A stretch of 64,000 nucleotides of DNA from Halichondria panicea (taxonomy: Eukaryota; Porifera; Demospongiae; Suberitida; Halichondriidae). The notes beneath the pieces were generated by a model that was not told the origin of the DNA, did not search any database, and saw only the letters and a program-made list of their open reading frames with translations. Below, in pieces: positions 5,468 to 62,689 of the stretch; the first letter of the stretch is position 1; every line of letters begins with the position of its first letter. Location of the stretch: assembly GCF_963675165.1 (NCBI RefSeq), contig NC_087377.1:8945122-9009121 (forward strand). Direction: 5' to 3'. A program made the position numbers and the translations under genes.

Positions 5468-8400
5468 ATGGACACAAGATTTGTTTTATTTTTAGTTGCG
5501 CTCTTAAGCTGGACATCAGGTAAAAGTCTTATTTGAAGATTGAGCTCTCAGTGCATATATCTATAATTCCCTTCTTGCTAGATCAAAACGCTTTACTGTG
5601 CTAGTTTTGCTGGTTTTTAGTACTTAAAGTAGCATCCGCATGAGTATTTCTCCATGCACTCTTTAGCTCAGCAACTGGTACTGTTCTGTCCCGGTCCTGC
5701 AACTATCAGCTGTTCAACTGTAACACCAATCATTTGGGATGGGACGGCTTTTAATGGACAGTGTCCCCTCAATGGGATCTCTTTTCAAACTATTAACAAT
5801 GACAGTATTGGTGAATATTCCTCTTGTGGAGAACTGAATGTGACTATCACCAATGTGGTCACAACCATTGATGTTGGTAGCACTGTAGTGAATGTTGACT
5901 CATCACTGTCTTTCAGTGCCCAACCATCTCTCAGTGGATTAACTGTTGTCTGTAGAAGTGGGGCCAATGCTGCTGTGAACTCTACGCTATTGATTCCAGG
6001 TAGGTATGAGTTGGCTGATGATCAAACATGCTTGGCTGACTCCTATGTACCACCCTGCAGATCCTACTCAGGCTGTGTCTGTGAGCCAGGACTCTCTGAC
6101 AGCTGTGACAGTGAATTTAATGGGCGGAGAAAGTCGCTGTATATCACTGTACTTTGTGGAGATCACTCAGAATGGCAGCAGCGACTCACCCGTTATCATG
6201 AACAGTCCTTCTCCTTCCATCGGTGTGACTGAGTTGGACCTATGTAGAAACCGCTACTCTTTTGTCGGCTTTGTTCAAGCTCCCTCAGGCGTACAAGGGG
6301 GAAGAAGTACAGCACAAATGATAGGTAAGTATCTGAAGCCTAACCTCCTAGGGACTACTCATCACATAATTATAGCGAGTATATACAAATTTACCTGCAC
6401 AAACGAAACACAGTCTAATGCGCTAGGAGACAGTATTAAGTGTTGCTTGAGAATTTATGTGAACCCCGTTCTGTTGTTTGATGCTTTCTATTGTAGGTTT
6501 CCACATAATTACAAACAAAATAAAGGAAAAGGCAGGTGCATGCAATTCGCAATAGTTTAAAGACGCAACATACAGGCTTGTACAGTGTCATCTGTAAATA
6601 TTATCGATCGAAACCTAGGGGCTGTTGAGATATAAGTAGTTTTCTTTTGCAGGTTTGGAAGCGGTTACAAATGTGAAAGCCAACACAACTACTTTGTCTT
6701 GGACACAGCCGGCAAACACTGCTTCAGATGGCTGTATCTCTGGCTATATCATCTCCTGGACTGAGGGAGAAGACACTACAATCAGTTCTAGCACTTCAGT
6801 TCTGGTGTCAAATCTAAACAACTTCCCTTTTTGTCAAAGTCAAACTCTAACATTGACACCCAATACACCATCTGGTCGTCTCCCTGTGGGTACCAGTTTA
6901 CAGAATGTGATATTTGAGCACCCAGGTACATAGTTTTGTGCCTCTAAAAGGTTTTAACTCGATCCTACATGTGTCTATACTTTACAGATTTTGCTGCTCC
7001 TGTAGTATCAGTCTTTTTCACTCTCCAGTCAGATAATGTGGTCATCAACATCAACTGGCAGGTAACAGGTTGTTTAACATTGCATCAAGAATTATTCAAT
7101 TCTACTTGTATATAGGATATCACTTTAGAGGCAGTTCCGTTGAGAATGTTTGGGTTCAGTAAGATTGGGGAGGGTGTGTGTAACCCTCAGTTTAGCGCAA
7201 CTGGTTCGTCGGTGACCCAGTCAGTACCAGGAGCTCAGTCTGGTGACAGGTACACTGTCTGTGTGGTGTTCATCAACAACGAGTGCATGAATCGTACAGA
7301 TGATACTATCAGAGGTGAGAGAAAGCTTTGTGTGCCTAATTTATCCATTTTGTATATCTCTACAGTTCCGGTGCAACTGCTCACCAATCCACTGCTATCT
7401 GTTGGTGATAGTTCTATCTCAATAGTGGTCACTGTATCTCCCTCTCCCCCCATGAGTCCTGACTCCCTATCCATACTCGCAACTATTGATCCCCCTCATG
7501 CTAATGCTGTGTTGGCAAACTACCCCACATCATCTCAGTACATGGTGATGTTCGATAGTCTGACCTCTGGAACAACGTACACTTACAACATAAGGGTGAT
7601 ACTCAGGAATGATTCTACCACCACTATTGGTCTGCCAGTGACTGGATCCTTCACTGTTCCAGGTAACTATACCTTCTACAGAAAATGTATGTGTCTGTTT
7701 ATTAAATCTGTATCTCTCCTCAGCATGTGGCACAGTTTGTGTAACCGTGGTTATTGTAGTGAGTGCAGTCCTGCTAGTGGTTGCTGTTTTTTGCCTAGCT
7801 GGAGGCTTCGGTGCTTACAAGTACAAAAACAGATTTAAAGGTACATGTAATGCAATGTGCTCAGAATTTTTTGTAACTAGCTTGATCAAGTTCATAAACC
7901 AATTTGCTCAAGTTCATAAACATGATCTTCCTGCATTTGCAAGATTGGTCAGTGAGATCGTTCAAATCCGAAAACACAGAGAAGCACAAACTTACGTAAG
8001 TGAAAGCCATAATTGTCTCGGTGTGCATTCTAGTGTGCGTGTGTGTTTGTGTGTGTGTCTGGCTGTGTATACTGTTACAGCTGCTCAGTGATAAATGAAG
8101 TGCAAGTAAGAGCTTCTAGTCAGTTTTCTTCGTGAATTTGCAAAATAATGCTTGTTCTCGAATTATGGCTAGTTGTGCTTACTTTGAAGGGCATTGCAGT
8201 CTCTTCAGACTCATGTGTAGCAAAATCTGTTGATATGACTTAGCTATTTAACTTAACATGTTAGCTCTGCACTAGAACGCTACCTATTGGTAGCTGCGAA
8301 AGAGCTGCAAAGCTCCACTGAATGCAACAGCCATTAATTATGGAATTTTAACTTTTTATAATCTTCATAGCAACAATCAGGATCGATCGTTTCCCACTAT

Positions 8401-11400
8401 CTTGTACCATTCCTGCCCTGCATGCAATAGCAAAAGTATTAGCATTATTGCAGCTAGCTTTCCACCATGGCATCAGCACCCGCGGTACTTTCATTTATTG
8501 TGCTTTTTTAAACTGATTGGAAGTAACCCAATTGTATACACATGTACAAAGATGCATGTACGTACACTCATTTCTAATACCATGGCAATTTTCTCATTCA
8601 GGTATTGCTCACCCCCTCCAACACCTGACTCCTTGTACGCTGACCCCAAATCCATTGAGCACCAGGCAGCCCCGGGCACTGAGGACCAGTACACCATTGT
8701 CGATAAAAACGGCAAGAAAAACACAAAACCAAAGCCAACTCCATCAGAAGCGGTGTATCAGGTATGTGTGAAGTACTTGTTGCATCATACACGTGTAGAT
8801 ACTCCAAGGTTTTCATAATGTAGGGTGCAAGTTAACTACCTTGTACATGTACCTTCTTACAGCTAGTGTCGCTTTGTGAACCTACTGCTTTGGTTATTAC
8901 TCCCTACTGCTATTTAGTACACACTACCAATCCCCACCCAGGACCCCTGCACAATTGAGCATAAGACCACTGCCTCTGGAGCCATCTATACCGTGGTGGA
9001 CAAGCTCAAGAGGTCCTCCAAGAAGGAAGGAGAGCCGGACGTGATTCCCCCAGCCAGCGAGGGGGTGAGTGGAGGAGGTCTTGTTTAGTATATGCAGTTA
9101 CTATTTTGTGTAGTGTACGTATAGTGATCAATAAAAATGTCCCCATACCGTTTCCATAGTATGTACGTGCGTAGTATGTTAACAAGCGTACTGTTTTAGC
9201 AATAATTATTGTTACCGTACTGTTTACCGTACTGTTTTTTGCCTGCGGGAGTACGACGTTGCAACGTAGCCACGCCCTATCTAGTTGCAACAGATCGAGT
9301 CTCTCAGAGGAATCTACAGCTAGATCTACAGAATACATTATTGCAAAGACTATAAGCTCTGGCACTTCCAGTACTATTAGTCTCCAGAAGCTATAATATA
9401 ATATTATGTTAAAGATGCTAAAGAGTTTGGTACAAGGCTAAACAAAAGTCATACAAAAGAAATGATGAAGTTGGGCTTGTTGTTTAAAGACGTGCATGCG
9501 TAGCATTTTACAATGTGTTTTAATTAGACAGTACGAACGTACTATGCATGCATGTACTATGGAAACGTTACGGAAACTTTTATTCATCGCTACTATATAT
9601 ACCCTGAATGTGTAGGTGCCTACTAGGAAACATTGCCGCGTATTATACAGTTTTCATCCAGCCAGAAAAACATTTGCAATGCGAAGATTTATGGATCATA
9701 ATGATAATTGACCGGGCGAACTATAAGTATTGTTTAAATGTTACCACAGGCAGTCACATGCATGCTGGCTATAAGCTGATTGAATAGTATTCAGCGAAAA
9801 TTGGCTCTTCCTACAAAATGCAAGGCTTCCTGTTATACTATGGATTGAAGAGTTAGAGGGATAAGAAACGAAGTGGTGCACGTCATGATTTTACATTGAA
9901 TCTGCAGTGGAGCCTTGAAAACTATCCGCCTTACGCCCTATGAACGAGGCTATTATGCCGGGTAACTCCCTCAAAATAAGAAAGTTGTGTTTCCTCGAGA
10001 CATCATCTCTTTCAGCAATTTATAACACGCCTACTCCATGAGCCACGTGTATAGTACTTGCTAATGACTGACCACACACACCCAGTAAAAAGAGACTTTC
10101 CAATAAGTTATGTTCCCAAGGCTGTTTTAGAGCTTTAATGGAACATGTAACGTGTAAGCATATGCTGGTTATGACTACTACAATAGGTATAGACCTTGAA
10201 ATATAAGTGAGTTGCATGGACTAAGCACAGTTACTTGTAGTTTATTATGCACTGGGTAGGTATAGAAATAGGTATTGTTGTGATGGCCTCGATTAAACCG
10301 CAGCGTAGCGCAGATGTATTCGAGAATACCAACCATTTCCTATCCCTCTAACTCTTCAATCTATGGTTATACAGCATGCATGTGACTGCCTGAATATTTG
10401 TACTCAATATCTAATGACATGACATGGCGTTTGTTTTGACCACTGCCTAATGGATGAATGTTTGTGTGTTCCTGAGAGGATTCAGTAGCCCAAACATGCA
10501 GTGCGACTAGAGTATCTTGCTGTTGAACACAGCGCTTTTGTCTTGTTAGCAACACTACTGTGAATTGAGATACATGCACACGCATGGTTACCATTGAGTG
10601 AATTTCCCCTAGCTGTCCTTAATACAATTAACCTATTGTTATAATTATGTATTCTATTGTATAAATCCCATTCTTGTGTGTGTACATGTGTGTGTGTCTA
10701 ATGCCTTGGAGGTAGCGTTTGTGAATGTTGGCAATAGTAAGACGTTTTAGTGTTCGAATTCCATGGGGACCGTTAATGATGATAACATTGAAATACACGC
10801 AACAATTTAATTCATCCCAATGCTAGTCCTAGTTACTGAGAATGCCTTCAGTTTCAGTGATGTTTATTGTCATGTGAACAGCTTATCATAGAATGTACAG
10901 ATCCACCCCCTAATGTTGTGTGTACATGATTTAGATTTAGAGAACATGTTAAGACCTGCCTTCAAACATTTCTTTGATAGTGGTACCATTGTGAATTGCA
11001 GTTGTCATAACTGTAGCTTCTCGTCTTCATTTCATAAGAAAAGTGGTCATGCTCTCTGTTTTTGGTACAACAATGATATCTCTATTACATATAGATATAG
11101 TGAATAATTAATAGCGTATTAGGCCATACATTAAATCATTCACTCATCATTATATGATAACAACACACTTTACTAAAAGGTGACTAGTGTTTACTTGACA
11201 ACCACTAGCTTGCATGATGCTATGTGTAAAATATGTGCCTATAATAATATTATAGTAGTTGCAATTGGTCATGTATGAATTGTGCCATTGTTAATCATGA
11301 TCGAGTCAGCAGTTACTCACAAGTACCTTAACTTGTATCATACACAATGTGCATTGTATGCTATTCACATGTGCATTGTACAGTACAACCCTAACCCTTA

Positions 11401-12281
11401 TTTAAGTCAGCATTATTACAGCTGTGGTGATATCCCTCGCACGCATTCTTAATTATATGGTCATGAATCAGGTATATCTGGTGGCATATTTAGCGAGTCA
11501 CATCTGATTGTGGAGGTAGCTCCACTTATTCTACATGCCTCAATTTCCAGGACAACTCAGTATAGTATATAATGTTGCACCCAATTGCCAGCGGTACAAT
11601 AATGAACTTTGATAGTTTCATTGTTACAATATTCATGTACAGTACAGTGTAGATGCCAGTGTTGCAAATGGACATTCCTATATATGGTGTACTCTATACA
11701 GTCAGTTGTTTGTTGCTCATATTAACCTCACAGTGTAGGTTATACATTATTATACCTACATGCATACACATTTAGAGTACATGTAAGCGTATTGAAGAAG
11801 CAACTAAACCTAACTCCAGCCAGCTTCCTCAGGAACTTTATTCAGAGGTGTTTGACGCATTACCAAAAGGGATGGCTCCTGAAGTTGTGAGGAATGGGAT
11901 GAAAAACTAACTGAATTTTATATATACAGTGATGTAGTTATAGCAACAGGTGCTCATTTTAACCTCATAGTGTAGTTAGCTTACACTATATCAATCCTTT
12001 AATCATACATTATTCATTATGTTTGTCGCTGTAAGAATCAATTTATTTTTATACAACAAGAGGAGCTACTGCACAAATCACATAATCATCATTACCTAAG
12101 TTAACTATAGAATATAGATATGGGTGAATACGGTGAGTCAGTCCTCGAGGTTAGTTCATGTCTTTCACTTCCCTTCTCTCCCCAGCTCCCATTGGATGCG
12201 TTAAGTCTCAATGAGGCAAGTGGTTTTCTTGCAAGACCTGGAGGATCTTCTAGGAAAATGTTGAGGAATTGGTATCGCTGA
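5468..12281 (+). CDS. Single-pass receptor: signal peptide, Ig, four FN3, TM, tyrosine-motif tail (copy A, intact)
   Basis: Exons: 5468-5519 (signal peptide MDTRFVLFLVALLSWTS), 5667-5999 (Ig-like, Cys in TISCS and TVVCRS), 6061-6324 (FN3, LDLCRNRYSF), 6653-6925 (FN3, TLSWTQPA and CISGYIISW), 6988-7061 plus 7116-7314 (FN3 split by a phase-0 intron), 7366-7662 (FN3), 7724-7840 (TM helix near residues 502-524), 7944-7995, 8602-8761, 8942-9064, 11824-11886, 12186-12281 (TGA). The sum is 2103 nt, 700 aa, with every junction GT-AG and in phase. The tail has tyrosines in YADP 566, YTIV 584, YQDP 606, YTVV 623 and YSEV 654. Exons 1-11 are firm. The last two are inferred from conserved acceptors, phases and stop in both copies; exon 12 could instead begin at 11776. 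Y-x-x-P and Y-x-x-V are the kinds of motif bound by SH2 domains, so phosphotyrosine signalling is expected. Confidence 0.8.
8000..8480. repeat. Dispersed repeat in intron 9 of the receptor
   Basis: The block containing AGAACGCTACCTATTGGTAG and the adjoining GT-rich stretch recurs at 44540-44930 (copy B), partly at 18290-18430, and in inverted orientation at about 62690-63060. No coding potential. It includes a (GT)n run near 8035-8060. Confidence 0.55.
9839..10365. mobile_element. hAT-like MITE with GTTATAC target duplication (copy A)
   Basis: Terminal inverted repeats TATGGATTGAAGAGTTAGAG and its near-complement ending CTCTTCAATCTATG enclose about 530 bp of non-coding DNA. They are flanked on both sides by GTTATAC, a 7-8 bp target-site duplication as expected for hAT elements. 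The element lies in intron 11 of the receptor. Other copies are at 46384-46904 (same site in copy B) and 30688-31150. Confidence 0.75.
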
Positions 12282-13288
12282 TGGAGGCTCTGGACCATGG
12301 GCGTCAAAAGTCGCCCTTAGCAGTCGGTGGGTGGTGCATGGTGTCGCTAGTGGCATGGTAGATATCGGTATGCGTTTACAAAGGAAATGCTGATTCCTGA
12401 CTAGGACTCTCCCAGATTGGGTCCTGATGGAAATATTGGCGATGTGGCCTAACGTCTGTAATAGGCCTCCCTGATAAATTATGCTCGGAATAATTTTAGC
12501 ATAATATAGGTGTCTAAAGAATAGCTGGGAATAATAGGTAGCAATGTCCATTTTTGGTAAAGATCATTACATAAAGTTTTGCATAACTTCCTCTACAATA
12601 ATCAGTCCTTCTCACTAATTGTGCCACAATGCTTCTGTGGTTCGGAGTGCGTAATAAACGGACTCGTCATAATTACGCAATTGTGCGATTGAAAAGTATG
12701 CTGATGTTTTTAACACATTATGACATTCCATGTTGTACAACTATAGAGCTAGATCTACCATAAAAGTATGTGAAATAGACAATAACAATTCAAATAACCC
12801 ATGAACAAAATAAGCCAGTCTCGCAAATTTAAAAGACGTCAACATCGTTGTTTCAGCTTCGGATCCACTGAATGATGTGTGTTCAATTGCTGCTGCTTTC
12901 ATCCTCAGCGAAGCCTGCATGGACTTATATCATGGCTATCTATATATAAGGCAAGGCGCTTGCTTCAATTCAGACGTTTATGGTATAATAAACGTATGAA
13001 TGCCGTCTGTTACGTTGAAATTTATCGCTGTCTTTTTATAGGCGAGTAGATTAAATCTATTAATGTGCTCAACCATCAATGTTTCTATAATTATAATCAT
13101 ATAATATTATAGCATGTCTCACGATTAGAGGAGTGTTACAAAATAACAACTATAACAGGAGAAATAAACTTGACTATAAAACTGTAGAGGCATGCTGATC
13201 TGAAGAAGTTTCGCTATTGCAAGACTTTGTGAGTGGCAATGGTGCATGGTAAGACATGTACTGCACACATGCATGGGACTAACGTATT

Positions 13289-24209: not shown

Positions 24210-24353
24210 GTGAGCTGTAACATGCATGCATATAGATTATAATAATATGATAGTATTTACACTGGTTTCGATCCACTTGTACTATAATATAACAACCAAT
24301 ATATTCATGTGATTGTCGATCGTTGCAGACACGCTGTACATTGTGAGACGGAG

Positions 24354-25691
24354 ATGGGACGAGTAGATAATATTGCTATTGCCTGTTTCGTTCTCATAAC
24401 ACTGCCTTATGAGATAAGTTGTCAATGTTCTGGAAGTTCTGACATTGGTAATACAGAATGTGTGTTACTTACACCATATTATTCGCAATATCAGTGGGCA
24501 ACCTGTTTGACTCATGAGTACGTTCACCGTGCAAGTAATCAGAGGCATATCTGTAGAAACTACGCAACACGTTGCTGGTACCAGTGTCAACTAGAAATAA
24601 ATAATGAGGAAAATGGTCCAGTGTTTGACAACTGCGCATGCTCCTCTGGAGACACTATACCACCGTCCGATGATACCATGCCCACTTTAGCTCCAGAATG
24701 CTTCAGCCCAAGTGGGGATGACTGCAATTGGTATCGAGACTGTCTAGAGGAGCGCTACCAATGTGAAGCGACAGGAGATGGATATGCCATAGAATATGCA
24801 AAAAAATTCTGCGATCTTTTTATGGAAGGATCAAGTGATTTCAGTAGTCAAGGAATGATGTGGATTGACGGAGTACGTAAATGCTTACAGGTAGTTTTGG
24901 TGCCGTCCCTGCGACCTTTTTTAAGCAAAACATGTGCTGACATCAAACAAGAAGCATTTGATAGCCATTCAAGATGCTACCTTGAACCAGGATCAGGAGT
25001 GCCTTCAATTTGTGATCTTTCAATAAGTGATAAATTAGCTGCTTTTTGTACTGTAAACTGTATATCTGGATCAAGAGCTTTTACTATGGAGCCAATTGAA
25101 ACAGGGAGACAAATGCTCGAAGTTATACATGGATGTGCAGCCAGAGGAATTATGTTCTATGGAAATAAAGTTGCAGCACTTTCACTTTTTCTCAAGTCCA
25201 AGATAGTTGATAATACTGTACTGACAGCAGCCAAGATAACGAGCTATATTGCAAATAAGCTACAATTTGATGAGAAAGCAATTGGATGGTTCCCTTTTGT
25301 TGATCGCTCAGAAGATGACACGAACCAACGCAAGCGTCGTGATGTCAAGACACAAAACAGTGATAACCCAATTGTTCTACTGTTATTTAGCTTGGCTTCA
25401 TTGAATATTTCCACCAATCAAGTGGATAATGCATACAGCATTGACCAAATTGTGAGTGAAATCGCAAATGCTGTGCAAAATGGACTACTCTCAAGTATCC
25501 CAGTTGCGGTGAATAATACACAAACTTTTTATGGGGTATCAAGTCTCGGACAGTGTGAAGATGTTCTCTGTAGCAACGGTACAAATGTAACGATCTTAGC
25601 TACCAGTGGAGCAAACGTCTCAAGGCACTTCAAAATGAGCATGGTAGTGTTCAGTGTATACACTTTGCTCGTGTGCCTTTTCTTAAAATGA
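24354..25691 (+). CDS. Secreted, probably GPI-anchored stanniocalcin-like protein
   Basis: 445 aa in one coding exon; ATG 24354 follows an acceptor at 24328, so the first intron is in the 5' UTR. Residues 1-22 form a signal peptide (MGRVDNIAIACFVLITLPYE). Residues 36-96 are a Cys-rich module with RHICRNYATRCWYQC. Residues about 116-232 resemble the stanniocalcin core: CLEERYQC at 130-137, then Q-G-x-x-W-I...RKCL at 166-178, a later C at 194, CYL at 208 and ICDL at 219. Stanniocalcins are secreted Cys-rich glycoprotein hormones or regulators in vertebrates. A dibasic site RKRR lies at 326-329. The C-terminus (428-445) is a hydrophobic tail without a cytoplasmic stretch, preceded by small residues near 418-421, as for a GPI signal. 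N-glycosylation sequons are at NIS, NNT, NGT, NVT and NVS. Domain assignment is pattern-based. Confidence 0.75.
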   Translation: MGRVDNIAIACFVLITLPYEISCQCSGSSDIGNTECVLLTPYYSQYQWATCLTHEYVHRASNQRHICRNYATRCWYQCQLEINNEENGPVFDNCACSSGDTIPPSDDTMPTLAPECFSPSGDDCNWYRDCLEERYQCEATGDGYAIEYAKKFCDLFMEGSSDFSSQGMMWIDGVRKCLQVVLVPSLRPFLSKTCADIKQEAFDSHSRCYLEPGSGVPSICDLSISDKLAAFCTVNCISGSRAFTMEPIETGRQMLEVIHGCAARGIMFYGNKVAALSLFLKSKIVDNTVLTAAKITSYIANKLQFDEKAIGWFPFVDRSEDDTNQRKRRDVKTQNSDNPIVLLLFSLASLNISTNQVDNAYSIDQIVSEIANAVQNGLLSSIPVAVNNTQTFYGVSSLGQCEDVLCSNGTNVTILATSGANVSRHFKMSMVVFSVYTLLVCLFLK

Positions 25692-41990: not shown

Positions 41991-44900
41991 ATGGACACAA
42001 GATTTGTTTTATTTTTAGTTGTGCTCTTAAGCTGGACGACAGGTAAAAGTTCTTATTTGAAGATTAGCTCTCAGTGCTATATATAATCCCTTCTTGCTAG
42101 TTAATACTTTCAAAACGCTCTACTGTGCTAGCTGGTTTAGATCTAGTTAAAGTAGTACTTAAGCAGTATCCACATGAGTATTTCTGCATGCATTCTTCAG
42201 CTCAGCAACCAGCACTGTACTGTCCCGGTCTTGCAACTATCAGCTGTTCAACTGTAACACCAATTATTTGGGATGGGACAGCTTTTAATGGACAGTGTCC
42301 CCTCAATGGGATTGGTTTTCAAACTATTAACAATGACAGTATTGGTGAATCCTCTTCCTGCGGAGAACTGAATGTGACTATCACCAATGTAGTCACAACC
42401 ATCGATGTGGGTAACACTGTAGTCATTGTTAACTCATCACTGTCTTTCAGTGCACAACCATCTCTCAGTGGATTAACTGTTGTCTGTAGAAGTGGGCCCA
42501 ATGCTGCTGTGAACTCTATGCTATTGATTCCAGGTAGGTATGAGTTGGCTGATAATCAGACATGCTTGGCTGACTCTTCTTTTGTACTATATACACTGCA
42601 GATCCCACTCAAGCTGTATCTGTGAGCCAGGACTCTCTGACAGCTGTGACAGTGACTTTGACGGGCGGAGACAGTCGCTGTATTTCACTGTACTTTGTGG
42701 AGATCACTGAGATAGGCAGCAACGACTCACCCACTATCATTAGCAGCTCTTTTCCCTCCATCGGTGTGACTGGTCTGGACCTGTGTATAGGAACCGCTCC
42801 TTTGTTGTCGGCTTTGTTCAAGCTCCCTCAGGCGTGCAAGGGGGAAGAAGTACACCATAAATGATAGGTAAGTATATATCTAAAGCCTAACCTCTTAGGG
42901 ACTACTCATCACATAATTATAGCGAGTAGATACAAATGTACCTGCACAAACAAAACAATTAAGACAGTATTAAGTGTTGCTTGAGAATTTATGTGAACCC
43001 CGTTCTGTTGCTGGATGCTTTATATTGTCACATAATTATTACATATAGATTGCAAACAAAATGAAGGAAAAAGCAGGTGCATGCAATTTGCAATAGTTTA
43101 TAGATGCAACCAGGCTTGTACAGTGTCATCCGCAAATATTATCAATCGAAACCTGCATGGTATACGGTAGTGGCTGTCGAGATAAGCAGTTTCTTGTGCA
43201 GGTTTGGAAGCGGTTGCAAATGTGACAGCCAACACAACTACTTTGTCTTGGACACAGCCGGCAAACACTGCTTCAGATGGCTGTATCTCTGGTTATATCA
43301 TCTCCTGGACTGAGGGAGAAGACACTACAGTTGGTTCTAGCATTTCAGTCCTTGTATCAAATCTGAACAACTTCCCTTTCTGTCAAGGCTGAACTGTAAC
43401 GGTGACACCCAATACACCATCTGGTCGTCTCACTGTGGGTACCAGTTTGCAGAATGTGATATTTAAGCACCCAGGTACATAGTTTTGTGCCTCTAAAAGG
43501 TTCTAACTCGATCCTACATGATGTGTCTACTTTACAGATTTTGCTGCTCCTATAGTATCAGCCTTTTTCATTCTCCAGTCAGATAGTGTGGTCATTAACA
43601 TCAACTGGCAGGTAACAGGTTGTTTATAACATTCCATCGAATCATTCAATTCTACTTGTATAGGATATCTCTTTAGAGGCAGTTCCATTGAGAATGTTTG
43701 GGTTCAGTAAGATTGGGGAGGGTGTGTGTAACCCTCGGTTTAGTACAACTGGTTCGTCGGTGACCCAGTCAGTACCAGAAGCTCAGTCTGGTGACAGGTA
43801 CACTGTCTGTGTGGTGTTTATCAACAACGAGTGCATGGAGCGTGTGGATGACACTATCAAAGGTGAGAGGAAGATTTTGTGTGCCTATATAACTTATCTA
43901 TTTTGCATATCTCTGCAGAAATGCTTGCCAATCCACAGCTATCTGTTGGTGATAGTTCTATCTCAATAGTGGTCACTGTATCTCCCTCTCCCCCCATGAA
44001 TCCTGACTTCCTGTCCATACTCGCAACTATTGATCCCCCTCATGCTAGTGCTGTGTTGGCAAACTACCCCACATCATCTCAACAGTACATGGTGATGTTT
44101 GATGGTCTCACTTCTGGAACAATCTACACTTACGACATCAGGGTGATACTCAGGAATGACTCCACCCCCACTATTGGTCTGCCGGTGACTGGATCCTTCA
44201 CTGTTCCAGGTAACTATATCTTCTACAGAAAAGTTGTGTGTCTGTGTATTAAATCTGTATCTCTCCTCAGCATGTGGCACAGTTTGTGTAACCGTGGTTA
44301 TTGTAGTGAGTGCAGTCCTGCTAGTGGTTGCTGTTTTTTGCCTAGCTGGAGGCTTCGGTGCTTATAAGTACAAAACCAGATCTAAAGGTACATGTAATAT
44401 GTAACAGATGTGCACAGAATTTTTTGTAACTAGCTTGATCAAGTTCATAAACATGATCTTCCTGCATCCGAAAGATTGGTCTGCGAGATCGTTCAAATCC
44501 GAAAACACAGAGAAGCACGAACTTACGTAAGTGAAAGCCATAATTGTCTCGGTGTGCATGGTAGTGTGTTTGTGTGTGTGTCTGTGTGTGTGTGTGTAGA
44601 CTGTTATAGCTGCTCAGTGATAAATAAAGTGCAAGTAAGAGCTTCTAGTCATGTTTTCTTCGTGAATTTGCAAAATAATGCTTGTTCTCGAATTATGGCT
44701 AGTTTTGCTTACTTTGAAGGGCATTGCAGTCTCTTCAGACTCGTGTGTAGCAAAATCTGTTGATATGACTTAGCTATTCAACTTAACATGTTAGCTCTGC
44801 ACTAGAACGCTACCTATTGGTAGCTGCGAAAGAGCTGCAAAGGTCCACTGAATGCAACAGCCATTTATTATGGAATTTTAACTTTTTATAATCTTCATAG

Positions 44901-47900
44901 CAACAATCAGGATCGATCGTTTCCCACTATCTTGTACCATTCCTGCCCTGCATGCAATAGCAAAAGCATTAGCATTATTGCAGCTGGCTTTCCACCGCGG
45001 CATCAGCACCCGCGGTACTTTCATTTATTGTGCTTTTTTAAACTGATTGGAAGTAACCCAATTGTATACACGTGTACAAAGATGCATATACGTACACTCA
45101 TTTCTAATACCGTGGCAATTTTCTCATTTAGACATAGCTTACCCCCTCCATCTCCTGACTCCCTGTATGCTGACCCCAGATCCATTGAGCACCAGGCAGC
45201 CCTGGGCACTGAGGACCAGTACGCCATGGTCGATAAAAACGGCAAGAAAAACACAAAACCAAAGCCAACTCCACCAGAAGCTGTGTATCAGGTATGTGTG
45301 AAGTACTTGTTGCATCATACACGTGTAGATACTCCAAGGTTTTCATAATGTAGGGTGCAAGTTAACTACCTTGTACATGTACCTTCTTACAACTAGTGTC
45401 GCTTTGTGAACCTACTGCTTTGGTTATTACTATATACCTACTGCTATTTAGTATACACTACCAATCCCCACCCAGGACCCCTGCACAATTGAGCATAAGA
45501 CCACTGCCTCTGGAGCCATCTATACCGTGGTGGACAAGCTCAAGAGGTCCTCCAAGAAGGAAGGAGAGCCGGACGTGATTCCCCCAGCCAGCGAGGGGGT
45601 GAGTGGAGAAGGTCTTGTTTAGTATATGCAGTTACTATTTTGTGTAGTGTACGTATAGCGATCAATAAAAATGTCCCCATACCGTTTCCATAGTACGTAC
45701 GTGCGTAGTATGTTAACAAGCGTACTGTTTTAGCAATAGTGTTACCGTACTGTTTACCATGCCGTTTTTTGCCTGCGGGAGTACGACGTTGCAACGTAGC
45801 CACGCCCTATCTAGTTGCAACAGATCGAGTCTCTCAGAGAAATCTACAGCTAGATCTATACAGAATATTATTATTATTGCAAAGACTATAAGCTCTGGCA
45901 CTTCCAGTACTGAGCTATTAGTCTCCAGAAGCTATAATATTATCTTACAAGTGCTAAAGAGTTTGGTATAAGGCTAAACAAAAGTCATTGACTATTTTAC
46001 AAAAGAAATGGTAAAGTTGGGCTTGTTGTTCAAAGACGTGCATGCGTAGCGTTTTACAATGTGTTTAATTAGACAGTACGAACGTACTATGCATGCATGT
46101 ACTATGGAAACGTTACGGGAACTTTTATTCATCGCTACTATATATACCCTGAATGTGTAGGTGCCTACTAGGAAACATTGCCACGTATTATACAGTTTTC
46201 ATCCAGCCAGAAAAACATTTGCAATGCGAAGATTTATGGAACATAACGATCAATGACCGGGCGAACTATAAGTATTGTCTAAATGTTACCACAGGCAGTC
46301 ACATGCATGCTGGCTATAAGCTGATTGAATAGTATTCAGCGAAAATTGGCTCTTCCTACAAAATGCAAGGCTTCCCGTTATACTATGGATTGAAGAGTTA
46401 GAGGGATAGGAAACGAAGTGGTGCACGTCATGATTTTACATTGAATCTGCAGTGGAGCCTTGAAAACTATCCGCCTTACGCCCTATGAACGAGGCTATTA
46501 TGCCGGGTAACTCCCTCAAAATAAGAAAGTTGTGTTTCCTCGAGACATCATCTCTTTCAGCAATTTATAACACGCCTACTCCATGAGCCATGTGTAGTAC
46601 TTGCTAATGACTGACCACACCCAGTAAAAAGAGACTTTCCAATAAGTTATGTTCCCAAGGCTGTTTTAGAGCTTTATTGGAACATGCATGTAACGTGTAA
46701 GCGTGCTGGCTATGACTACACAATAGGTATAGACCTTTAAATATAAGTGAGTTGCACGGACTAAGAACAGTTACTTGCAGTTTATTATGCACTGGGTAGG
46801 TATAGAAATAGGTATTGTCGTGATGGCCTCGATTAAACCGCAGCGTAGCGCAGATGTATTCGAAATACCAACTGTTTCCTATCCCTCTAACTCTTCAATC
46901 TATGGTTATACAGCATATGACTGCCTGAATATTCGTACTCAATCTAATGACATGACATGGTGTTTGTTTTGACCACTGTCTAATGGATGAATGTTTGACG
47001 TGTGTTTCTGAGAGGATTCAGTAGCCCAAACATGCAGTGCGACTAGAGTATCTTGCTGTTGAACACAGCGCTTTTGTCTTGTTAGCAACACTACTGTGAA
47101 TTGAGATACATGCACACGCGCATGGTTACCATTGAGCTAGCTGTCCTTAATACAATTAACCCATTGTCATAATTATGTATTCTATTGTATAAATCCCATT
47201 CTTGTGTGTGTATGTGTCTAATGCCTTAATTGGAGGTAGCGTTTGTGAATGTTGGCAACAGTAAGACGTTTAGTCTAATTATAGCGCTCTTGTGTTGCCG
47301 TAGTCTTAGAGGTACGTTTTGGCTGTCAGAGAGTTTCTGTATTCAGTATTGCACTGTATTGATTGTGCGTAAGCCGCAGGAGGCATGCGGTAAAGTTTAC
47401 CGTGTGTGTGTCTTTATTATCGATCAAGTAATGTCAAGTAATGTTGTAGTTTTACTATACCCTACAATGTATGTGAGATATGAGACCACACTTGTCAACT
47501 GTACGAATAAATGCATGTATATATACTTGTCAAAACTCCCAACTGTGTATTCAATTCCATGGGGACCGTTATTGATAATAACATTGAAATATACGCAACA
47601 GTTTAATTCATCCCAATGCTGCTATAGTCCTAGTTACTGAGAATGCCTTCAGTTTCAGTGATAGTGCAAGGGTGTTCCTGTTTATGTGAACAGCTTATCA
47701 TAGAATGTACAGATCCACCCCCTAATGTTGTGTGTGTACATGATTTAGATTTAGAGAACATGATAAGACCTGTCTTTAAACATTTCCTTGTAGTGGTACC
47801 ATTGTGAATTGCAGTTGTCATAACTATAGCCTCTTGTCTTCATTTCAGAAGAAAAGTGGTCATGCTCTCTGTTTTTGGTACAACAATGATATCTATATTA

Positions 47901-49077
47901 CATGTAGATATAGTGAATAATTAATAGAGTATTAGGCCGTACATTAAATCATTCACTCATCATTATATATATGATATACAACACACTTTACTAAAAGGTA
48001 ACTAGTGTTTACTTGACAACCACTAGCTTGCATGATGTCATGTGTAAAACATGTGCCTCTAATAATAGTAGTTGCAATTGGTCATGTATGAATTGTGCCA
48101 TTGTTAATCATGATCGAGTCAGCAGTTACTCACAAGTACATTAACTTGTATCGTACACAATGTGTATTGCATGCTATTCACATGTGCATTGTATAGTACA
48201 ACCCTAACCCACATTAGTCAGCACATTACAGCTGTGGTGATATCCCTCGCACGCATTCTTAATTATATGGTCATGAATTAGGTATATGTGGTGGCATATT
48301 TAGCGAGTCACATCTGATTATGGAGGTAGCTCCACTTATTCTACATGCCTCAATTTCCAGGACAACTCAGTATAGTATAATGTTGCACCCAATTGCCAGC
48401 GGTGCAATAATGAACTTCGATAGTTTCATTGTTACAATGTTCATGTACAGTACAGTGTAGATGTCAGTGTTGCAAATGGACATTCCTATATATGGTGTAC
48501 TCTATACATGCAGTCAGTTTTTTGTTGCTCATATTAACCTCACAGTGTAGGTTATACCTACATGCATACACATTTAGAGTACATGTAAGCGTGTTGAAGA
48601 AGCAACTAAACCTAACTCCAGCCAGCTTCCTCAGGAACTTTATTCAGAGGTGTTTGACGCATTACCAAAAGGGATGGCTCCTAAAGTTGTGAGGAATGGA
48701 ACGAAAAACTAACTGAATTTTATGTATACAGTCATGTAGTTATAGCAACAGGTGCTCATTTTAACCTCATAGTGTAGGTTATTAGCTTACACTATAAATC
48801 CTTTAATATTCATTATGTTTGTCGCTGTAAGAATCAATTTATCTTTATACAACAAGAGGAGCTACTGCACAAATCACATAATCATCATTACCTAAGTTAA
48901 CTATAGAATATAGATATGGGTAAATACGATGAGTCAGTCCTCGAGGTTAGTTCATGTCTTTCACTTCCCTTCTCTCCCCAGCTCCCATTGGATGCGTTAA
49001 GTCTCAATGAGGCAAGTGGTTTTCTTGCAAGAGCTGGAGGATCTTCTAGGAAAATGTTGAGGAATTGGTATCGCTGA
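41991..49077 (+). pseudogene. Receptor gene copy B, disrupted in exons 3 and 4
   Basis: Exons match copy A one to one: 41991-42042, 42201-42533, 42602-42867, 43202-43474, 43538-43611, 43664-43862, 43919-44209, 44271-44387, 44475-44526, 45132-45291, 45476-45598, 48626-48688, 48982-49077. All splice sites are kept. Exon 3 is 266 bp instead of 264: a net +2 near 42785-42800 destroys the LDLC-x-NRYSF core. Exon 4 has TGA at 43390-43392, where copy A reads CQSQT. Every other exon is open; exon 7 differs by a clean 6 bp and exon 11 is identical to copy A. Both damaged exons are phase-1 symmetrical, so a transcript skipping them would remain in frame. Tail motifs YADP, YAMV, YQDP, YTVV and YSEV are present. 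Confidence 0.75.
46384..46904. mobile_element. hAT-like MITE with GTTATAC target duplication (copy B)
   Basis: Orthologous to 9839-10365, flanked by GTTATAC at 46377-46383 and 46905-46911. Confidence 0.75.
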
Positions 49078-60269: not shown

Positions 60270-62424
60270 ATGCAACTCACTCTTGTCAATTCACAGATTG
60301 TTGTTACCTGCTTAATACTGTTAGGGACTCTGCTTATTAAGTCAGGTAAGCTTGGACTTGACTCCATGTTTTAACTTGTGTGCACGTGTGTTCAAGTTTC
60401 GTACGTCATAATTATATCTGCATGGTCATCTATACCTATGATGTTTGTCGCAGCAATTACTTACAGAACATGAATTGTATTTTAAAACAAATAAACTCCT
60501 TTTTTGTGTACTGCATTCGAAAACGTATGGGCCACCATTATTTCAAAGAAGAAGTAGAATAGTTTTTGCTTTAATAGGACCCTATTTAAGTGCTAGCATA
60601 TAGCATATACTCTGTGATAAAAGCAGTGAAGAATACTGTCATAAATCTAGGTGATGGAGCCACTGACACCTTAGTCTCCCCCACTGTTCCCAATGGAAGA
60701 CTGTGTTTCTGTCCTGGTGATGTGGAGACCTACACTTGTACTGTGGTCGGTGGAGCTGTTACAGTGTGGTCAGGAACTGCCTTTGACTGTCCCTCAAGCA
60801 ATGAAATACAATTAGCTCATGCTCTGTACTCTGGAGGGACTGCTACTGGAGAATGTGGGGCTATTATTGGTAATGGTATTTCAGTGGACACTAGTGCAGC
60901 AGAATTTTGCTACACATCAGAACTGTCAGTCACTATTAGTGCCAACATGGATGGGCAAACTGTAGGATGTACAAGAGATATTACTCTGATTGGCATTGAT
61001 TCATTGCGAGTAGCAGGTAAATAGCATCACAGTGTGACAACGGTCTACTGACCTTTAACCCCCCCACAGGTCCACCCCCACCACCAACTAACATGATGGT
61101 GACAGAGGTTGGTGTGTCCTCATTTACTATAACTTGGGTGGAGCCAACCAGTAGCTGTGGAATTTCCTTCTCATACGATGTCGTCTCAGATTGTGGAGGC
61201 TCTTGTTCAGTTAGTTCCAGCACGTCAGGAGTTTGTTCTGGTTGGACTGCTCCACAGAGCTGCTCAATTATGGTCAGGGCCAACTCTGACTTGTGTGGTG
61301 GTCAGACTGGAAGCTTCAGCACTCCTGTAATGCTAAACTTAATGGGTGAGTGAGAGCTATATATATAGGGTAAGTGTGGCATTGTGACTCATAACAATTC
61401 TCCATAGAACCATCTCCCCCTCCTGAGGGTGATGTCAGTTTGCTGGCAGTGTATTCTGATAACAGCCTCAACTCTATCACTGTCACCTTCCCAACAGTAG
61501 TAAGCAAGTATCTCTCTAACTTGGTATAGCATTCTTCAATAATTATTACCATGGACATACAGAGTCCTGTTGAGGTTGCTCCTGGTTTGGTTCCTGCAGT
61601 TACTTACTCTGTACGAACCATTGGTGATCCACAAGTTGTTCTCAAAGGCAACTGCAATGCTACCCTGTGTCAGTACCAGACGGAGTTCACTAGTGATAAT
61701 CGTCCCAGCAATGATTTTACTGTGACTGTTACCGTGTCCAATGGAATTGGAGGTGATCAATCAGTGAATACACCCTTCCAAGGTGAGTTTGATGTTGTCC
61801 ATCCATACAGTTTAACTACTGAGTATTTTTTTTGCAGTGCCAGTCAATATCTCTTCTTTGGTTACTCTAACAGTTGTTGTAATAGATTCCAATGCTAATG
61901 TGTCCGCTCGTTTGTCCAGTGGTTTCCAAGGCTCCACCGGTTTGACAGTGACCTACGGAATAACTCCTAACTGTGATGCCAACACTATGATGACAGCTAA
62001 CGGCATGGCTGGGGATACTCTGAAAGTTGTCCTGGCATCTCTACAACCTGATTTAACTTATTGTTATTCCATTTACTTCAACCAAAGAGTACTATCATTT
62101 AAGGTGGTGGGAGTGTTCCGCTCAGGTGGGTCTTGTATAAGTATTGTTGATAATATCACACACATGCAGAATGTGATGCAGCTGATCTGTCAAGTCACAG
62201 TGTGTTACAATCCTCAGAGGTGTGTTTATTAGATGGTTTTGCTGGTGGTATCACGATCCCTAGTGGACGTGTGTGCTACACTGGGACAGTCCTTGGAGCC
62301 CAACACACGGCACAATCTTTCTGCAACCAAGGTTACCAGCTCATCTCCACCTCCTCTCCATCCAGAGTGTGTCAGAGTGATGGCACATGGAGTGGAACTG
62401 TTGCTCTGTGTGAACCTATACCAT
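60270..62424 (+). CDS. Receptor with signal peptide, Ig, FN3 and sushi domains, 3' end beyond window
   Basis: Exons: 60270-60345 (signal peptide MQLTLVNSQIVVTCLILLGT), 60651-61016 (Ig-like, residues 26-147, Cys-rich: GRLCFCPGDVETYTCTVVGG), 61070-61345 (FN3, SSFTITWVEP), 61408-61499 plus 61563-61782 (FN3 split by a phase-0 intron), 61838-62125 (FN3-like), 62170-62424 (sushi/CCP, residues 440-524: CYTGTVLGAQH, SFCNQGYQLIS, VCQSDGTWSGTVALCE). All junctions are GT-AG, phase 1 except the phase-0 intron inside FN3. 524 aa are visible. The exon plan equals the minus-strand gene at 1-2020, where the last FN3 and sushi are in one exon, so a transmembrane exon and tyrosine-motif tail are expected downstream. 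Introns are very short (about 40-60 bp in the middle). Confidence 0.85.
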
Positions 62425-62689
62425 GTAAGTATAAAGAGAACAAGCTTTAGAACTTATTGTGTAGAGACTCTCGCTAATCCAGCTCTGTGGTCATCTTGAT
62501 AATAACTGCCGTTTTGTTGGGCACGGATTGCTAGCTAGTATTAAGAATCCTAGATCCGCCACTGCTGACTTAATGAAAGCACCACAGGTGCTGATGCCTC
62601 GGTGGAGATGCCAAAGCTACATAACATAAAGCTACATTTTTGCATTACACACACAAATGTAATAAATTTACTGCAGCAAACTCAAAGAG

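Follow-up and report, generated by a model that had tools for sequence, protein, structure and literature searches.

How does a sponge come to carry a receptor whose cytoplasmic tail is built from repeated tyrosine motifs, and does that tail belong to something larger? The question is raised by a gene near the left end of a 64,000-nucleotide stretch of Halichondria panicea DNA (the window; C1:8945122–9009121, where C1 is contig NC_087377.1), which a first-pass annotation described as a duplicated receptor with a tandem tyrosine-motif tail. The genome searched comprises 131 Mb in 39 contigs, and is the one assembly examined. Our main finding is a contrast between two classes of tail that are carried on similar ectodomains. 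We favour the reading, at a probability of roughly 0.55, that the gene, here called copy A, is one of a large complex on C1 of single-pass, kinase-less recognition receptors, in which at least three outer classes, assembled from Ig-like, FN3-like and sushi-like exons, are combined with two tails according to the logic of paired receptors. The 'uncharacterised sponge recognition-signalling system' suggested earlier fits what the sequences indicate.

Copy A and its repeated tail

Copy A lies on the forward strand at 5468–11910. Rebuilt from the sequence it has 12 exons, joined at GT-AG splice sites, and encodes 676 residues: a leader and an Ig (immunoglobulin)-like N-terminal exon are followed by the rest of the ectodomain, a single transmembrane exon and the cytoplasmic tail. 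Exon 1 (5468–5519) provides the start and a signal-peptide-like leader (MDTRFVLFLVALLSW), and exon 2 (5667–5999) a candidate N-terminal Ig-like domain with a C-W-C pattern. The ectodomain continues through exons 3 (6061–6324), 5 (6988–7061) and 6 (7116–7314) to the membrane-proximal exon 7 (7366–7662), while exon 4 (6653–6925) encodes the FN3 domain that had been proposed (Pfam fn3, E 7e-08). This is the sole significant Pfam family in the 676 residues of copy A, and no kinase domain was found there. Exon 8 (7724–7840) contains the transmembrane segment; by eye, and for copy A only, there is no lysine or arginine inside its hydrophobic stretch.

The tail begins with 18 juxtamembrane residues from exon 9 (7944–7995). 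Exon 10 (8602–8761) encodes the first unit, with Y566 (YADP), Y584 (EDQYTIV) and, as its last residues, Y606-Q; exon 11 (8942–9064) opens with the DP that completes this third motif across the exon junction, and continues to Y623 (YTVV) in the second unit. The last exon, 12 (11824–11910), holds Y654 (YSEV) and the stop. The two units form an internal repeat: their local score is 55, shuffled sequences average 22.1 (z 7.3), and none of 5000 shuffles reaches 55. All the tyrosine positions first assigned to this repeat and to YSEV are thus confirmed on the rebuilt gene. A thirteenth exon, also proposed, has no place in it: the stop at 11910 ends exon 12, and stops likewise close exon 12 in the near copies of copy A. 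The final stretch of the annotated region (5468–12281) beyond this stop is probably 3′ untranslated region, because 11661–12288 is 94% like a copy at C1 8.92 Mb.

Two tails on several ectodomain classes

How general is this tail, which we call tail 1? A search with its 94 residues finds exon 10 at 12 places, one of them decayed, and exon 11 at 11 places, all at C1 8.918–10.035 Mb. The 11 readable places lie within ~0.9 Mb (8.918–9.793 Mb) and the decayed one at 10.03 Mb. The three remaining matches have E values of 0.13 or worse, and every match with E below 0.1 is on C1. The expectation that the module recurs outside its gene, in a cluster of receptor genes, is therefore borne out. The 11 readable tail-1 genes have five type-A ectodomains (the class of copy A), two of type C and four of type D, those of types C and D lying at C1 9.10, 9.24, 9.40, 9.47, 9.59 and 9.79 Mb; a type-D gene likewise precedes the decayed tail. 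The 28-residue exon 12 is present behind all five type-A copies that have tail 1, with no match beside the six type-C/D genes that have it, and exon 9 is found in six of the seven type-A copies. A close copy of exon 12 lies at C1 7.989 Mb, with weaker relatives at 7.84–7.98 Mb. The region C1:7.84–7.99 Mb is a further receptor cluster that has the YSEVFDALPKG last exon in common, but other tail units of YANP/YADP form.

Type-C and type-D genes that lack tail 1 are repeatedly followed by a second tail, tail 2, typically YE[ED]P followed by [LV]AYGHV near the stop; a stop closes it in most of the rows read. It has one or two units. The first tyrosine is in the context YE[ED]x, usually YE[ED]P where the tail has one unit and YEDI or YEEL in some genes with two, and the second, close to the stop, is of the immunoreceptor tyrosine-based inhibitory motif (ITIM) type, (L/V)AYxxV. 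A genome search at E ≤ 1 gives 61 matches, 54 of them below 0.001, and all on C1. The ITIM consensus [SIVL]xYxx[IVL] was counted on 50 of the 61, rows that are not independent, some being near-identical copies or a gene's second unit: it is present at the second tyrosine in 40, mostly as LAYGHV or VAYGHV, and anywhere in 42. This count supersedes a hand-picked subset of 26 rows, of which 23 had the consensus anywhere. A single sequence family for the two tails was considered and rejected: comparing exon 10 with tail 2 gives z 1.2 (722 of 5000 shuffles score at least as well), and comparing exon 11 gives z 2.6 (113 of 5000); spacing alone agrees.

The window itself holds one example of each tail at its left end. 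The type-D receptor at 1–2045 on the reverse strand (5′ limit approximate) is head-to-head with copy A, giving a mixed-class pair of tail 2 and tail 1, and its tail (AIYEDPDIVKPDPCTQGNLAYGHVQFS-stop) runs ~50 bases beyond the window start. This left-edge receptor had been said to share the tyrosine motif of copy A. It does carry AIYEDPDIV, but within tail 2, so that tail 1 is not shared.

In the census, which covers the loci listed on C1 between 8.85 and 10.05 Mb (31 genes), each tail was assigned to the nearest same-strand exon. Tail 1 and tail 2 occur respectively in five and one genes of class A, two and seven of class C, and five (one decayed) and ten of class D; in one of the 31 the tail is not assigned. 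Type-A gene A9538 has tail 2 beside it. DNA likeness between type A and types C/D starts near exon 10 and continues through the next intron. One type-C gene also resembles a type-D gene that lies 300 kb away on the other strand: past the tail the two match at 91–97% over 6.3 kb, as far as the compared stretch reaches, although their ectodomains differ. A 3′ cassette has therefore passed from one receptor class to another, and the locus offers a clear natural case of signalling tails moving between such classes as exon cassettes.

The contrast is plain in three matched pairs, each made of a tail-1 gene and a tail-2 gene that stand head-to-head. C9070 (reverse strand, 9.070 Mb) and C9102 (forward, 9.102 Mb) are 99% identical in DNA across the Ig-like exon, and 94% over a stretch of 2.7 kb that ends before the transmembrane and tail exons. 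C9226 (reverse, 9.226 Mb) and C9239 (forward, 9.239 Mb) are 98% identical in the diagnostic exon and 97% over 1.6 kb, and diverge before the sushi-like exon. D9752 (reverse, 9.752 Mb) and D9792 (forward, 9.792 Mb) have 99% in the diagnostic exon and 97% over 1.6 kb, and here likeness stops ~46 bases into the exon-10 match. The exon identity table behind these values covers 14 of the 15 type-D loci, D8851 giving only a partial match. Might such pairs be assembly artefacts, haplotypes joined side by side? Identity of 99% is near the allelic level and comes from a single assembly, but side-by-side haplotypes would be collinear, whereas the pair copies are inverted, about 9–35 kb apart, and have different 3′ ends; we regard an artefact as very improbable. 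A description of all members as bidirectional-promoter pairs was rejected, the gaps running from ~3 kb to ~35 kb and some neighbours being tandem.

Weighing the paired-receptor reading

Are the tails maintained? The ratios of non-synonymous to synonymous substitution (dN/dS) given here are all pooled values and point estimates. For tail 1 they are 0.33 in exon 10 and 0.25 in exon 11 (11 copies each), and 0.15 in exon 12 (3 copies); among types C and D exon 10 gives 0.20 and exon 11 0.12. The value for tail 2 is 0.28 (11 rows). The small tail exons look conserved by selection. In the 11 readable copies of tail 1, Y566, Y584 and Y606 are always kept, and Y623 in eight, with cysteine in the other three. 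Proline stands at +3 of Y566 in 10 of the 11 and of Y606 in all, matching YxxP, the ligand preference of the Crk SH2 domain; Crk docking on tail 1 is only a reading of this motif. The context of Y584 is EDQY[AT][IM]V in every copy, and the ITIM consensus is found there in none. Nor is that consensus matched in exons 10–11 of copy A, and YSEV in its exon 12 has glutamate at −2. The general form of tail 1 is YxxP, then YxxV 17–18 residues further on, with YSEV in the last exon of type-A copies.

If the receptors work as we suppose, binding of ligand would let a Src-type kinase phosphorylate the tails, and SH2 proteins would dock on the phosphorylated tyrosines. The two tails might then recruit different effectors, with tail 2 of the SHP-phosphatase type, and inhibitory, and tail 1 of activating or adaptor type. 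Near-identical ectodomains with different tails would give different outcomes for the same ligand, as in paired receptors, and the role could lie in allo- or microbial recognition. A stronger form of this is tentative and somewhat doubtful: that sponges have a true paired-receptor complex, more than a megabase of genes and some of them head-to-head, with an ITIM-type inhibitory and a dityrosine activating tail on one ectodomain, the tails spread by 3′ cassette exchange and the receptors possibly serving in histocompatibility or microbe discrimination. If that were true, balanced activating/inhibitory receptor logic would date from near the animal root, or have arisen there independently.

A rival possibility is that these are ordinary tandem-duplicated adhesion or recognition receptors. 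The tails would then be variants of one phosphotyrosine scaffold that do not oppose each other and bind overlapping sets of Crk/Nck-type adaptors, and their mixing would be a by-product of unequal exchange, frequent in so repeat-rich a cluster. Blocks at the 3′ end have clearly been exchanged, and the commonest spacing of the tyrosine pair is the same in both tails: it is 18 in every one of the 11 copies of exon 10 and in 18 of 31 tail-2 units (17 in exon 11, in the eight copies keeping Y623). Yet a shared scaffold sits poorly with an ITIM consensus in 40 of 50 at the second tyrosine of tail 2 compared with 0 of 11 at Y584, and with three head-to-head pairs that combine near-identical ectodomain exons with different tails. 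We consider it rather unlikely.

Seven divergent neighbours of the same class and with mixed tails are observed in the region. Shuffling everything gives an expectation of 1.48 (P = 3e-5) for the 31 genes, a set without the tail-2 loci that lack a recognised ectodomain; with seven such loci added, the class of some being set by their tail likeness, it gives 1.21 for 38 loci (0 of 100,000). Shuffling strands only, 2.05 are expected (P = 0.0005).

A number of observations weigh against the paired-receptor reading. The pairing test was devised after the pattern was noticed; when tails are shuffled within class, the mixed divergent pairs are only marginal (P = 0.033 and 0.065), and four of the seven same-class head-to-head pairs are not mutual nearest relatives. 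The assignment of tails to ectodomains is by proximity and not from transcripts. No known activating motif is strictly matched by tail 1. The hemITAM, a half form of the immunoreceptor tyrosine-based activation motif (ITAM), has the consensus DGYxxL in the accessible text of PMC3819593, and tail 1 has DQYxxV, in which the aspartate at −2 fits and positions −1 and +3 differ. The ITIM consensus is found within tail 1 at the fourth tyrosine of two copies (VIYTVV in D9470, VMYAVV in A9666) and at the first tyrosine of D9792 (SIYADL), and is missing from the second tyrosine in 10 of the 50 tail-2 matches. In the D9792/D9752 pair, tail 1 is without Y623 and the first proline at +3.

Further points of the same kind concern selection and decay. 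In type-A copies alone dN/dS is 0.46 for exon 10 and 0.48 for exon 11, no lower than in the ectodomain exons of that type, which are mostly 0.33–0.43 with 0.78 for exon 7 (7 copies); the pooled tail-1 values are low because of the comparisons with types C and D. There is one frameshift each in copy B (the second copy within the window), A9530 and A9538, a stop in exon 11 of D9470, and a change of reading frame within the tail of D9752. Such frameshifts and the D9470 stop, the decayed tail at 10.03 Mb, the type-A tail ratios and a stretch at A8897 in which exons 2–3 and the tail are unmatched would all be expected if the genes were lineage-specific duplicates, many already pseudogenes, that are retained through duplication and not function. 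This is very improbable given ratios of 0.15–0.33 for pooled tail 1, 0.12–0.20 for types C and D and 0.28 for tail 2, the short exons 9 and 12 that stay in frame, and three tyrosines kept in 11 of 11 copies. Nor was strong positive selection found, pooled dN/dS being below 1 in every exon set computed; the highest value, 0.78, is that of type-A exon 7 and equally of the Ig-like exon in seven of the nine type-C genes.

Ectodomains, known systems and neighbouring genes

Is the N-terminal exon an Ig domain? Its C-W-C columns are invariant in 10 sequences, and belong to the eight columns that are invariant among these N-terminal exons of types A, C and D, which by sequence are remote relatives. 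A profile search with exon 2 of copy A gives a best E of 0.09, which is not significant, and all 25 PDB sequences at E ≤ 1 contain Ig domains. Pfam assigns no Ig family to exon 2 or to the type-C or type-D N-terminal exons, and over 10 members gives a single Ig_5 match at E 0.52. A fold prediction of exon 2 from the two copies in the window had a predicted local distance difference test score (pLDDT) of 31.6 and was not used. An Ig fold is thus suggested. By eye the type-C ectodomain has Ig-like, FN3-like and sushi-like parts, the sushi-like exon falling below the Pfam cut-off (E 0.013).

Paired receptors are defined, in the available part of PMC3533184, by very similar extracellular parts and different signalling ends. 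Siglec-11 and Siglec-16 are described in the accessible text of PMC5701461 as head-to-head genes separated by about 9 kb, whose N-terminal exons gene conversion keeps highly alike over ~3 kb, one gene being inhibitory and the other activating. As far as that text goes, C9102/C9070, C9239/C9226 and D9792/D9752 are alike in layout, in 98–99% identity of an ectodomain exon and in having unlike tails. The sponge genes also match paired receptors in clustering on one chromosome (the tail-1 matches with E below 0.1 and every tail-2 match are on C1) and, as a motif, in the ITIM of the inhibitory member (40 of 50 for tail 2). They differ with respect to the vertebrate activating member, which is short-tailed and couples to an ITAM adaptor through a charged residue in its transmembrane segment: no such member was identified, and tail 1 is itself long and tyrosine-rich. 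The outer domains of Siglec-11/16, from a distant animal lineage, are unrelated to those of the sponge beyond a possible Ig fold. The layout is that of paired receptors, but the activating side is putative and unlike the vertebrate type.

We know of no receptors for sponge self/non-self discrimination. Sponge receptor tyrosine kinases have an Ig/FN3 ectodomain, a single pass and tyrosine signalling, and differ from copy A in their kinase domain, which Pfam does not find in the latter. Compared by description, the Botryllus FcoR proteins of the fuhc locus are likewise clustered; they are type I receptors that combine Ig with sushi domains, and ITIMs, hemITAMs and plain Yxx(I/L/V) motifs can occur in their tails; the sponge receptors differ in their FN3-like exons and YxxP unit. 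The alr proteins of Hydractinia belong to the Ig superfamily. Like the sponge genes they lie in a chromosomal complex, as candidate allorecognition receptors with ITIM/ITAM-type motifs, again by description, and the accessible text of PMC12065747 makes no mention there of two exchanged tail cassettes or head-to-head matched pairs. The same text presents both FcoR and alr as clustered receptors with ITIM-type tails and as allorecognition candidates, calls invertebrate allorecognition mechanisms a 'complete mystery', and sees the cnidarian and ascidian candidates converging on ITIM/ITAM-type signalling. A review of invertebrate Ig molecules assigns those of sponges to adhesion and recognition, and the part available mentions no ITIM receptor from sponges (PMC11999971). 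We found no paired-receptor or ITIM-tailed receptor cluster from sponges in the openly licensed literature, which is no proof of absence. Now that the complex is mapped, its two tails are defined and matched pairs are identified, tests can be made with specific genes, antibodies and phosphopeptides.

The second copy that made this a duplicated receptor does exist. Copy B (41991–48712, forward strand) has the ectodomain class of copy A and tail 1, with exon 10 at about 45133–45291, exon 11 at 45476–45598 and exon 12 at 48626–48712, but as a gene it is interrupted, the frameshift falling in exon 3. Elsewhere, the exon-10 donor of D9403 is GC. A type-C ectodomain lies in the window at 60590–62430 (forward strand, limits approximate), with Ig-like, FN3-like and sushi-like exons; the nearest same-strand tail-2 matches are outside the window, at C1:9013326–9013541. 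C9070 has two separate transmembrane-plus-tail-2 exons, and in several type-C/D genes two successive hydrophobic exons precede the tail; these arrangements may reflect alternative splicing or a double-pass form. Type-C-like Ig exons form a second cluster far from this one, on a different contig (C8:835281–899024).

Just left of the window, on the reverse strand at about C1:8936.5–8941 kb, the cluster includes a gene for a receptor-type tyrosine phosphatase. It has repeats that look sushi-like by eye, and Pfam gives it an Ig domain (Ig_3, E 3e-12) as well as a tyrosine-phosphatase domain (E 1e-07). SH2 domains give 71 matches in the genome. Two of these, C1:8613183–8613344 and C1:8635968–8636129, of near-equal score and extent, lie ~3–5 kb from same-strand tail-2 matches, as if SH2 proteins were encoded inside the receptor complex. 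Within the window a single open frame of ~467 codons (24288–25688, forward strand) is cysteine-rich and has no obvious relation to the receptors. Finally, C2:656915–667884 contains three exons that we take to be silicatein-like from the silicatein motif, and that support a siliceous sponge, with the catalytic cysteine replaced (CGASYAF); the reversed-pattern control gave 0.

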